Shown piece after piece: positions 7,353 to 9,521 of a DNA stretch of 64,000 nt (its first letter is position 1; every line of letters begins with the position of its first letter). The notes under the pieces are model-generated. The model was not told the DNA's origin, ran no database searches, and saw only the letters and a program-made list of their open reading frames with translations. The translations under genes were made by a program, and so were the position numbers. This DNA comes from Zymomonas mobilis subsp. pomaceae ATCC 29192 (GTDB taxonomy: Bacteria > Pseudomonadota > Alphaproteobacteria > Sphingomonadales > Sphingomonadaceae), in NCBI RefSeq assembly GCF_000218875.1, contig NC_015709.1, positions 372,001-436,000 of the forward strand, written 5' to 3'.

Positions 7353-7558
7353 AATCTCAATTAATAAAAATTTTTATTTAAAAAAATTATAAATAAATTT
7401 ATCGCTCTATTAATTTGTAATTTTAATAATTAATAACTTATTAAAAAGTAATTAAAATACTAATTTTCCAACAAAAGTGATATTTTATCGTTGACTTCTT
7501 TCCTACATCTCTCATTCTTGATATTTATAGAACATAACAAGAACAAGAGTATTCGATT

Positions 7559-7882
7559 ATGAGGCATTCTGAACAGGCAACCTCTTATGAGACCTATTCC
7601 TCCGCTCCATCGCTATCATCATCACTTTATACAACAAAGATAGCGCATCGTGCCTGCTCTAAAGATTTCACCTCTTTGGAGCAGACATCTTCATGCGAAA
7701 ATTTTGAAAATTCGGCGGCTAATCATTTACGTCGTGTAGGCTATGTCCCCGTGTGCCACGCGAACATTGTCGATATGACTTTTGAATCGGATGTATGGTT
7801 AGTAGGACGGCATATCGTATCCACTGCTGATATGATTACGATGGCAACCTCTCGTGGGTTTCAATCTAAAAACATACAATAA
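7559..7882 (+). CDS. Hypothetical protein, 107 residues
   Basis: I do not recognise this small protein. It has a Ser/Thr-rich N-terminal half (about residues 1-60) with no membrane segment or signal peptide, and a more ordered C-terminal part containing RRVGYVPVCHANIVDMTFESDVWLVGR. It is likely real: it has an ATG, a promoter-sized AT-rich upstream region and a strong terminator 20 bases after its stop. It lies just before the lysis cassette, where a regulator of that cassette might sit. Zymomonas is reported to carry a gene zliE next to or working with zliS, but I cannot tell from sequence whether this is that gene. Confidence 0.6.
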   Translation: MRHSEQATSYETYSSAPSLSSSLYTTKIAHRACSKDFTSLEQTSSCENFENSAANHLRRVGYVPVCHANIVDMTFESDVWLVGRHIVSTADMITMATSRGFQSKNIQ

Positions 7883-7901: not shown

Positions 7902-7937
7902 AAAAGGGCTGATTGCCTAAGCTATCAGTCCTTTTTT
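7902..7937 (+). terminator. Intrinsic terminator after the 107-residue ORF
   Basis: AGGGCTGAT pairs with ATCAGTCCT (one G-T pair) and is followed by a run of six to seven T. It ends the upstream small gene before the lysis cassette. Confidence 0.88.
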
Positions 7938-7952
7938 GTGCTTTAAAATAGT

Positions 7953-7990
7953 AAAAATAGCCCTTCCTCTACACATTAAGCTATTTTTTT
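7953..7990 (+). terminator. Second terminator-like hairpin in front of the lysis cassette
   Basis: AAAAATAGC (7953-7961) is the exact complement of GCTATTTTT (7980-7988), with an 18-base loop and more T residues after it. It lies only 15 bases after the previous terminator and about 90 bases before the endolysin start, so the lysis genes are doubly shielded from read-through. Confidence 0.65.
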
Positions 7991-8081
7991 AATTTATTTA
8001 CATTTTGGAAATTAATTATGATCTTGCTTTTAACAGAAGTGGACATTTTCGTTGTGTCTTTATTCTGTTGGAGGGCGTCTT

Positions 8082-8636
8082 ATGATGACGCCTGCTGATT
8101 TTATTCATTGGTATATTAACCATTGGGAAGGAGGCTTATCGCTTGATCCCGCAGATCAAGGTAATTGGTGGCAAGGTCAACTTGTCGGCTCGAAATATGG
8201 GATAACAGCGGCGGCGCTTTCCCAAGAACGCAACAGCCCAACAATTACGGCCAAGGACATGGCCGCGCTTACTGAAGACGAGGCGATTAAAATTGGTCTT
8301 ACTCAATATTACCAAGCCTTTAATTTTAATCAATTACCGTGGAATCGGGTGACAGCTTCAATACTGGATAAAGCGTGGGGATCAGGGCCTAGAACCGCTA
8401 TCCGGTTATTACAAAGACTGATTAAAGTCGATGCCGATGGGATCATAGGCCCCACTACCATCGCTGCTTATCAGAAATGGTTGCATCATTATGGAGAAGT
8501 CCAAGCGGCCAATTTATGGGCAGATTGTCGAGAAAATTTTGATAGCACGCTCAATCAGCCTCGTTTCTTAAAAGGGTGGAATAACCGCACCAATAGTTAT
8601 CGACCTGATAGTGCATGGTGGTTAACGATGACATAA
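8082..8636 (+). CDS. GH108 family muramidase (ZliS-like phage-type endolysin)
   Basis: The protein cuts the peptidoglycan glycan strand. From the ATG at 8082 it has 184 residues; this start is chosen because GGAGG lies 7 bases upstream, although an in-frame TTG at 8052 also exists. The N-terminal GH108 domain (about 1-95) holds the catalytic Glu16 in NHWEGGLS followed by SKYGITAAALS, the family EGG...GIT pattern. The C-terminal part (about 100-175) is the partner peptidoglycan-binding domain with WGSGPRTAIRLLQR and DGIIGPTTIAAY. There is no signal peptide, so export would depend on the holin downstream. The family carries the name ZliS from a Zymomonas protein reported to stimulate secretion of levansucrase and invertase; orthology is an inference. 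Confidence 0.88.
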   Translation: MMTPADFIHWYINHWEGGLSLDPADQGNWWQGQLVGSKYGITAAALSQERNSPTITAKDMAALTEDEAIKIGLTQYYQAFNFNQLPWNRVTASILDKAWGSGPRTAIRLLQRLIKVDADGIIGPTTIAAYQKWLHHYGEVQAANLWADCRENFDSTLNQPRFLKGWNNRTNSYRPDSAWWLTMT

Positions 8637-8678
8637 AATTAGAACAAAACATGAACAAAAATAGAGAGGATCAAAAAC

Positions 8679-8903
8679 ATGCGTTTTTACACCGTAATAC
8701 GCTGGATAAAGGGACGCTTACAAGAACGCACCACATGGGGAGGTTTACTCATCGTGACGGGCACATTGCTGGGGCACGATATGGGTTGGATCAATAATAT
8801 GGCTCAAGGTATCGGTATGGCGACCGTCGGCGGCACGCTGATTTCTTTTAGCGACCAAGGTAGCAAAAATATTTCCGATCATGGAGCTAATGGCGCATCA
8901 TGA
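8679..8903 (+). CDS. Putative holin, two transmembrane segments
   Basis: A 74-residue protein with a basic N-terminus (RWIKGRLQER) and two short hydrophobic segments, about residues 20-33 (WGGLLIVTGTLLG) and 41-57 (MAQGIGMATVGGTLISF), then a polar tail. Size, topology and position right after an endolysin without a signal peptide are those of a phage holin, which forms inner-membrane holes that let the endolysin out. AGAGGA lies upstream of the ATG. The stop codon overlaps the start of the next gene (ATGA), pointing to translational coupling. The role is inferred from context, because holins share little sequence. Confidence 0.75.
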   Translation: MRFYTVIRWIKGRLQERTTWGGLLIVTGTLLGHDMGWINNMAQGIGMATVGGTLISFSDQGSKNISDHGANGAS

Positions 8904-9325
8904 TCAGTATATCCTTAATATGGTCTTTTTTAAAAGGATCATGGCGTCCGATTGCCTGTATTTCAGCAATTATCTTGGTAATAGCGCTTATTCATCACGA
9001 CGGCTATCGTCGAGGTCGCCATTATCAAAAAGCCCAATATGAAAAGGCCATCGCGCTTGTTCAAAAGCAGGCCGCTAAAGCGCAACAACAGCTTAATACT
9101 CTGGCCAATACAGCCCTTCAGAAACAACAGGATCAGGCTCAGAAAATAAGGATTATTAGAGAAAATGTGCAAAAAGTGGTTGCGCAGCCGATTTATCAAA
9201 CTCTTTGCGGTAATGCTGCTGCTACCCGCTTGCTCGACAACGCACGTCGTGCAGCCAATGCCGGACTTACCAATCAGCCTGATGACGCCTCCCCCAACGC
9301 TGCCAGCCTTTCCGCACAACCCTGA
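8900..9325 (+). CDS. Rz-like inner-membrane spanin (i-spanin)
   Basis: A 141-residue protein with one membrane segment near the N-terminus (about residues 17-31, PIACISAIILVIALI), then a long charged and Gln/Ala-rich region (about 38-95) that should form a periplasmic coiled coil, and a Pro/Ala-rich tail. A conserved-looking YQTLCGNAAATRLLDNARRA block near 99-118 resembles the end of Rz-type proteins. Rz subunits pair with an outer-membrane lipoprotein to fuse the two membranes in the last step of phage lysis. Its ATG overlaps the holin stop by four bases. The partner gene starts inside it in another frame, which is a hallmark of Rz/Rz1 pairs. Confidence 0.82.
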   Translation: MISISLIWSFLKGSWRPIACISAIILVIALIHHDGYRRGRHYQKAQYEKAIALVQKQAAKAQQQLNTLANTALQKQQDQAQKIRIIRENVQKVVAQPIYQTLCGNAAATRLLDNARRAANAGLTNQPDDASPNAASLSAQP

Positions 9326-9467
9326 CAATAGCTTGACAGCAGCGCAGTGGATGGAAGGCAGTGTTAACCTTTATCAGGTCGCCGGTAGTATCAGATTACA
9401 ATTATTGGAATTACAGGCCGCCGCAGAAGTTCAGAAAAAATTATCTTTAAAAGATAATAGCCATTAA
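9165..9467 (+). CDS. Rz1-like outer-membrane lipoprotein (o-spanin) overlapping Rz
   Basis: A 100-residue lipoprotein read in the +1 frame relative to the i-spanin gene. It starts inside that gene and runs 142 bases beyond its stop. It has a basic N-terminus, a hydrophobic stretch (LFAVMLLL) and the lipobox LPAC with Cys23 as the acylated residue. Ser at the next position favours outer-membrane sorting. The mature part begins with a proline-rich stretch (QPMPDLP, TPPPTLPAFP), the classic Rz1 feature. A weak GAGAAA precedes the ATG. The overlap, lipobox and proline content together make o-spanin the only good explanation. It completes the endolysin/holin/Rz/Rz1 set. Confidence 0.85.
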   Translation: MCKKWLRSRFIKLFAVMLLLPACSTTHVVQPMPDLPISLMTPPPTLPAFPHNPDNSLTAAQWMEGSVNLYQVAGSIRLQLLELQAAAEVQKKLSLKDNSH

Positions 9468-9478
9468 TAATTCTAACC

Positions 9479-9521
9479 TATTCTACGCCTGTATTTTTTA
9501 TTTCTATACAGGCGTAGAATA
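9479..9521. terminator. Long perfect hairpin between the lysis cassette and the P1 peptidase
   Basis: A perfect 16-base-pair stem (9479-9494 with 9506-9521, core TTCTACGCCTGTA) with an 11-base T-rich loop, placed between two convergent genes. It probably ends transcription in both directions, but neither side has a proper T run after the stem. Confidence 0.6.

Follow-up and report, generated by a model that had tools for sequence, protein, structure and literature searches.

In Zymomonas mobilis ZM4, two genes, zliE (ZMO0934) and zliS (ZMO0932), are associated with the sucrases of this bacterium. The available excerpts of the ZM4 papers cite Kondo 1994 for a stimulation of sucrase secretion by zliS and of sucrase production by zliE, and they describe ZMO0929-0932 as a single predicted operon, with zliE as a separate unit. 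In these excerpts, the operon genes carry the annotation hypothetical rather than holin or spanin, and nothing connects them with a phage particle. In a second described system, the type 10 system of Yersinia entomophaga, four lysis functions likewise lie in one chromosomal block; according to the excerpted reports, they release exoproteins by lysis, with a subset of cells expressing them. The window analysed here, a stretch of 64,000 nucleotides of Zymomonas mobilis subsp. pomaceae ATCC 29192 (NC_015709.1, positions 372,001 to 436,000 of the forward strand), contains zliE and a four-gene lysis cassette composed of zliS, a holin candidate, an Rz-like gene and an Rz1-like gene. This block, together with zliE, is probably, though not securely, the detached lysis module of an SU10-like podovirus particle system that is domesticated and present throughout the genus.

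The identity of the locus follows from a profile search of the window's own genome (G000; the other three Zymomonas genomes compared are labelled G024, G109 and G170), which contains one GH108 gene, at 8082-8636 (+). Because it is the sole GH108 gene of the genome, it is evidently the zliS orthologue, and the open reading frame (ORF) upstream, encoding 107 residues at 7559-7882 (+), is evidently the orthologue of zliE, a proposed activator. The equation with the ZM4 genes is based on GH108 uniqueness, position and the co-conserved upstream ORF, the ZM4 counterparts being known by tag and order; zliS of the window is 71% identical to that of Zymomonas mobilis AN0101, which places the window in another lineage of Zymomonas. 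The studied block begins at the intrinsic-terminator-like hairpin of zliE, located at 7902-7935 (+) in the zliE/zliS gap (−17.5 kcal/mol, z −3.65, with a T run directly 3′); the alignment of the relatives, beyond which no further search was made, shows no evident counterpart of this hairpin. The order of regulator ORF, terminator and four genes agrees with the operon description for ZM4. The zliE product has no family match below E 0.2 in Pfam, NCBIfam or PHROG, its structure model (predicted local distance difference test score, pLDDT, 63) gave no fold match at E ≤ 0.001, and among 296 genomes of the order the gene is present only in the three Zymomonas sampled.

The zliS product is predicted to be an endolysin of the N-acetylmuramidase type, with matches to the GH108 family (PF05838, E 9.2e-16, over the cut-off), to PG_binding_3 (PF09374, E 1.2e-7) and to phrog_315 (E 3e-29). 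Its relatives in the PDB, 7dnp and 2nr7, are both titled 'Secretion activator protein'. Residue E16 in the HWEG stretch, which we take to be the catalytic residue, is invariant across the four Zymomonas genomes. The next ORF, of 74 residues at 8679-8903 (+), is a holin candidate by position and size; it has no Pfam or NCBIfam match and a single, non-significant PHROG match, its best 19-residue hydropathy is weak (0.97), and its structure model is of low confidence (pLDDT 54.5). The Rz-like i-spanin, of 141 residues at 8900-9325 (+), matches phrog_1152 (E 3.6e-11) and six more Rz-like PHROGs (E ≤ 0.022), and it has one hydrophobic segment, at the N-terminus (hydropathy 1.98). The Rz1-like o-spanin lipoprotein, of 100 residues at 9165-9467 (+), begins within Rz in another frame and carries an LPAC lipobox and a proline-rich stretch (by eye), although its spanin matches are weak (phrog_1267, E 0.04; phrog_456, E 0.057). 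A predicted i-spanin with a nested, predicted o-spanin lipoprotein is what a phage-type lysis cassette would contain, the PHROG support for Rz1 being weak.

A preliminary description of the window, made from the letters alone, had anticipated much of this arrangement. Its GH108 endolysin without signal peptide agrees with the profile matches and with a hydropathy scan in which the N-terminus is not hydrophobic, and its Rz-like i-spanin is upheld. The overlapping Rz1 lipoprotein keeps its lipobox, proline-rich stretch and nested frame, but gains little from the PHROG matches, and the two-helix holin fits in size and position but not in hydropathy, model confidence or family match. The start/stop overlaps described there are found between the holin candidate and Rz (4 nt) and between Rz and Rz1 (161 nt), whereas the endolysin and the holin candidate do not overlap and lie 42 nt apart. 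ZliS had been mentioned as the namesake of the endolysin family; the excerpted literature indeed ties zliS to sucrase secretion, but the gene in the window is evidently the zliS orthologue itself.

The cassette is syntenic and intact in 4/4 Zymomonas genomes, with all its frames open, the nested Rz/Rz1 arrangement kept in each, and the holin candidate 80-85% identical across the genus; zliE is likewise conserved and intact in all four. The flanks are also common to the four genomes, with a gene resembling glutathione S-transferase (GST) and a transporter on one side and an S58 peptidase and a leucyl/phenylalanyl-tRNA transferase on the other; the flanking genes examined are non-phage, as had been described. 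The ratio of nonsynonymous to synonymous substitution (dN/dS, NG86) between G024 and G109 was 0.077 for zliS, 0.072 for the holin candidate, 0.206 for Rz, 0.196 for Rz1 and 0.193 for zliE, compared with 0.057 for the neighbouring GST gene and 0.043 for sacB; these values are rough, with dS near or above 1 for most genes, and the overlap of Rz with Rz1 constrains the values of both. The comparison covered 23 genes, omitting three small ORFs and the first capsid exon of the particle cluster described below; gp237 gave no value for this pair, and zliE, gp100, the adaptor, gp223 and gp237 gave none for G000 vs. G024, where dS was saturated. Because the cassette is intact and syntenic in 4/4 Zymomonas genomes and under purifying selection, it is a conserved, domesticated chromosomal unit and not a phage scrap; on this point the earlier inference is supported by the synteny and intactness check and by dN/dS values of 0.07-0.21 in the cassette.

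Outside Zymomonas, zliS relatives occur in 5/294 Sphingomonadaceae genomes. Five such loci, in four genomes, were fetched, and phage genes lie by four of them: L016 and L017 are near tail genes, L019 is near a phage-type transposase, and L015 is next to an Rz gene (the count covers these four and leaves out L018 and the weak match L010). A scan of named genomes for zliS gave two Zymomonas loci only, and a scan of viral contigs with the zliS alignment found no relative. An occurrence of the block only inside prophages of relatives had been named as an outcome that would speak against domestication. This outcome is seen in part, for zliS alone, whose relatives mostly lie beside phage genes (4/5 loci fetched).

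Published lists for ZM4 contain co-changing zliE, ZMO0930, sacB and genes annotated as 'hypothetical' from ZMO0381-ZMO0398, and the DNA around sacB-sacC was therefore read. A collinear set of about 18 genes is found there in G000 (C1 918022-934746), G024 (C7 1088475-1104864) and G109 (C1 496309-512698), at an identical site between lon/glycosylase and rlmE/ppx-like genes (by eye). The set comprises a small terminase (TerS, phrog_309), a large terminase (TerL, PF04466), a portal (PF23899, E 5.7e-170), a scaffold (phrog_3927), a capsid (SU10_MCP, PF17236, E 4.9e-58), an adaptor (PF24175, E 1.2e-23), further virion proteins and an S74 tail-spike. With the SU10 families of portal, capsid and adaptor all matched, the cluster is, as judged from its predicted proteins, an SU10-like podovirus structural module. 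No integrase, replication or lysis gene was recognised in the G000 cluster, in which several ORFs are family-less, the 90- and 128-residue ORFs were unsearched and the 884-residue ORF was partly searched. The SU10 portal is present in 4/4 Zymomonas and in 9/294 other genomes of the family, and it is sporadic in the class (20/385 genomes, 16 of them over the family cut-off). The 15 particle genes tested all have open frames; a dN/dS value between G024 and G109 was obtained for 14 of them and ranges from 0.016 to 0.167, with 0.016 for the 3′ exon of the capsid gene, 0.026 for TerL and 0.094 for the portal. In G000, zliS and the small terminase are 555 kb apart (about 540 kb if measured between the near ends), and the distance between cassette and cluster also exceeds half a megabase in G024 and G109. 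As for capsid and tail genes, the earlier remark on their absence holds locally, but an SU10-like cluster lies about 540 kb away in the same genome. The further conclusion that the cassette is not a matter of phage is not supported as it stands: the genus keeps an SU10-like particle cluster, which co-changes with zliE and a lysis-operon gene in several published ZM4 lists.

The capsid gene of this cluster is interrupted at an identical codon by a group I intron in 3/3 aligned Zymomonas genomes. In G000, the intron is located at L030:8892-9261 (C1 928892-929261, − strand) and matches Rfam RF00028 with 52.2 bits; the match in G109 scores 50.1 bits, against a gathering score of 50. At this threshold, neither G024 nor the G170 stretch L042 has a listed match; the intron of G024 is visible by alignment, and L042 may end short of the intron. 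The intron core is conserved and the loops are variable, the exon sequence resumes in register, and in the sphingomonad prophage capsid L106 the reading frame runs through the inferred junction without a break. The capsid gene is therefore probably functional rather than broken, with removal of the intron by splicing presumed from the alignment.

The connection between the two loci draws on joint expression in ZM4. In the excerpts of two papers, ZMO0379 is annotated as a phage terminase large subunit, so that ZMO0378-0398 would by collinearity be the particle cluster. The gene set considered consists of sacB, sacC, ZMO0378-0398 and ZMO0929-0934. In the excerpted lists, its members make up 10/19 genes down in a plasmid-free ZM4 strain, 5/7 and 3/4 genes down in two medium comparisons that share one condition, and 5/14 genes up in a comparison of 30 vs. 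45 °C. The hypergeometric probabilities for the four lists range from 1e-14 to 1e-5, assuming 29/1,900 genes, and chance is remote also without the sac genes. A regulator-mutant study, as excerpted, reports that sacB, sacC, zliE and zliS are jointly down, and under ethanol ZMO0929-0932 are reported to act as one operon while zliE and sacB also fall, zliE at a different level and with a different pattern. None of these expression papers, in the excerpts available, ties the co-changing genes to a particle. Tail sheath and tube genes of the ZM4 plasmid p36 are listed beside sacB and the particle genes in the 30 vs. 45 °C comparison (PMC8237431, in excerpt).

These data bear on a rival explanation, in which the cassette is a dedicated, type-10-like machine for releasing the signal-less SacB and SacC and is connected with the particle genes only by accident. 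The zliS and zliE effects cited from Kondo 1994 in the excerpted papers favour this explanation, and so do the GH68 sucrase genes, of which each of the four Zymomonas genomes has two, with frames that begin without an evident signal peptide (by eye). The functions also match those of the excerpted Yersinia entomophaga cassette, holA-pepB-rz-rz1. However, the Yersinia hydrolase is a peptidase, and RoeA, the regulator, is predicted to bind DNA, in contrast to the GH108 enzyme, the family-less ZliE and the particle cluster kept in the Zymomonas genome. As regards membership in type 10, the Zymomonas block lies locally outside a phage, yet its holin is a candidate by position and a particle cluster is in the genome. 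Against the rival, a particle cluster under purifying selection, without a recognised lysis gene, adjoins sacB-sacC, appears on the same change lists and would need a release route, and the zliS relatives elsewhere are mostly found by phage genes. We regard protein release as the sole purpose of the cassette as rather unlikely. As the primary function of the cassette, release of particles is no less likely than release of proteins. In that it lyses cells, the cassette would resemble a type 10 system, and it would also resemble the accessory lysis genes of a gene transfer agent (GTA); it is a candidate for membership in either.

A further question is whether cassette and particle cluster descend from one phage or two. 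The best capsid match in the phage set is Sinorhizobium phage phiM5 (45%), which like Zymomonas has a GH108 endolysin and, with it, a GTA_holin_3TM holin and an overlapping spanin. In contrast to Zymomonas, the lysis genes of phiM5 lie inside the structural cluster, which is the arrangement expected before a split, and an integrase and a DNA polymerase are annotated. A capsid-based viral scan, covering the best 80 of 563 loci, did not bear out the idea that the GH108 lysis type travels with SU10-like phages, since 1/80 loci had it. Records of Sulfitobacter phages include matches to zliS (6 records) as well as to the Zymomonas portal (7 records). No gene for a GH24 lysozyme was found in the four Zymomonas genomes (0/4; other lysozyme types were not searched for), and none for a tail sheath, a PF04860 portal or a PF05065 capsid (0/4 each). 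Joint conservation, joint expression and the absence of GH24 lysozymes argue for a working link between cassette and particle.

The conserved DNA upstream of zliE might offer a route for the control of such a link. A GAAC-N7-GAAC sequence, the published alphaproteobacterial LexA consensus according to the excerpted source, is located at 7530-7544 (+) and ends 14 nt before the zliE start codon. This SOS-type box, GAACATAACAAGAAC, is an identical 15-mer in 4/4 Zymomonas genomes and differs by one mismatch from the recA box of G000, where the same pattern precedes recA and lexA (genes named by eye; positive controls). A second box, between zliS and the holin candidate at 8642-8656 (+), is present in all four genomes, with one base of the N7 different in G024. 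The pattern is absent from 60 kb around the particle cluster in G000 and G109, and the same 60 kb of G024 contains two boxes only, within the sacB and sacC frames. With no such box at the particle cluster in G000 and G109, LexA would have to act via ZliE. Two boxes 156 nt apart are also found in G000 (C1 161286-161456) ahead of an rpsB-like gene (by eye), and similar close pairs occur in G024, G109 and G170.

Several observations weigh against the proposal that the cassette serves the particle under such control. The holin is a candidate named from size and position. GAACN7GAAC is not enriched: G000 contains 39 sites and 47 of the reversed control pattern, and the corresponding counts are 32 and 64, 32 and 54, and 29 and 62 in the remaining genomes; the two boxes of the window, against 1.24 expected, are within chance for 64 kb (at least two in 37/100 shuffles), and the zliE box, relative to its gene, has the reverse orientation of the recA and lexA boxes. 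No motif common to seven upstream regions was found, although this is a weak test, 4/7 regions being without any conserved 10-mer. In the excerpts, the 30 vs. 45 °C list is without zliE or any lysis gene, and in the plasmid-free strain SacB protein is up while the sacB transcript is down. The joint change could track growth phase, and the expression lists stem from few laboratories. Within the DNA examined, a GH108 endolysin occurs in just one of the 80 capsid-related viral loci, or in 1/24 of those with at least 7 kb beyond the capsid gene, and the nine non-Zymomonas family genomes with the portal do not intersect with the five that have a zliS relative. The cassette may therefore have been recruited separately from the particle.

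In a second rival explanation, the two loci are leftovers of different prophages, functionally unconnected and each retained for a separate reason, e.g., superinfection exclusion or wall turnover. The distance of about 540 kb in G000, the possibly different phage sources and the want of a promoter motif in common all fit this explanation. However, cassette and portal are both kept in 4/4 genomes, under purifying selection at levels like that of the neighbouring GST gene, and the published lists, in excerpt, join both loci, which makes two independent remnants improbable.

Comparison with gene transfer agents brings in a third rival, that the cassette provides the lysis genes of an RcGTA-type agent. 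The GTA of R. capsulatus uses a holin-endolysin mechanism according to the excerpted literature, and zliS has a match to NF040573, 'holin-associated N-acetylmuramidase', albeit well below threshold (48.5 bits, cut-off 240). GTA_TIM is absent from G000 (0/1), and the PF05065 capsid and PF04860 portal from all four genomes, whereas all three were found in a Caulobacter control; on these grounds membership in the RcGTA family was rejected, and this explanation retains hardly any credibility. The negative PF04860 search is, by itself, misleading as to portals in general, the SU10 portal belonging to another Pfam family. In contrast to RcGTA, CcGTA, BaGTA and BhGTA, the Zymomonas system is known from genes alone, and its structural genes are of SU10 type rather than RcGTA type. 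The gene order of BaGTA (TerL, portal, an 840-nt gene, 'phage related') resembles that of the Zymomonas cluster, as compared by gene sizes and order only, and a published Sulfitobacter phage terminase, in excerpt, nests with BaGTA, so that a kinship of BaGTA with SU10-like phages is possible. BhGTA (VSH-1) is reported to be induced by DNA damage. Rhizoviticin, an alphaproteobacterial tailocin, is likewise a domesticated phage module and, according to its excerpted description, is SOS-dependent and has lysis genes; it is headless, whereas genes for terminase, portal and capsid are all retained in the Zymomonas cluster. A tailocin reading was dropped, as these three kinds of gene are present.

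As in a GTA, head and packaging genes are kept at one place in the lineage under purifying selection, with the cluster read in three genomes and the portal present in 4/4. Zymomonas might carry an independently evolved GTA of SU10-podovirus type, with a self-splicing capsid message, a remote lysis operon, a LexA-controlled ZliE and joint delivery, by a minority of lysing cells, of packaged DNA and of exoenzymes that serve as public goods. This fuller reading is possible but less likely than not, and its odds are lowered because the box control of the window lies within chance and because SacB protein rises in the plasmid-free strain. If it is true, gene transfer and protein secretion would take place in one act, and this would account for how SacB and SacC leave the cell although they lack signal peptides. 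Among the matches listed for the open-access literature, no description of a particle or GTA in Zymomonas was found.

For a detached lysis module of a domesticated particle system, the following sequence of events is proposed. A signal (stress, perhaps DNA damage through LexA) would turn on zliE, and ZliE, presumably in part of the population only, would upregulate sacB/sacC together with the particle cluster and the lysis operon. Splicing out of the group I intron would complete the capsid message, and particles, whatever their contents, could then be made. The holin would give ZliS access to the wall, Rz and Rz1 would disrupt the outer membrane, and the lysing cells would release particles along with the signal-less sucrases. 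If this is true, the long-cited secretion factor ZliS would be the phage-type endolysin of a domesticated particle system, and signal-less sucrase export in Zymomonas would become a testable matter of programmed lysis. An SU10-type lineage, unusual for a capsid gene split by an intron, would also join the few domesticated particles known to package DNA. The matter has a practical side as well: ZM4 is used for industrial ethanol production, and lysis of some of its cells would cost yield and release enzymes.

Three minor observations concern the surroundings of the cluster. A small protein resembling a helix-turn-helix protein adjoins sacB (L031:1503-1880, +; G000 C1 941503-941883); it has a sub-threshold match to Phage_CP76 (CII) and similar ORFs in G024 and G109, and it is a candidate second regulator. 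The sacB leader of G024 (L033:18087-18131) contains an inverted repeat with 15-nt arms that are 93% complementary, similar in G109 by eye, which is possibly an attenuator or antitermination site. The lon gene of G000 (by eye; C1 935709-938128) is present as two adjacent ORFs of 121 and 684 residues, compared with a single ORF of 808-809 residues in G024 and G109, reflecting a frameshift or a sequencing error.

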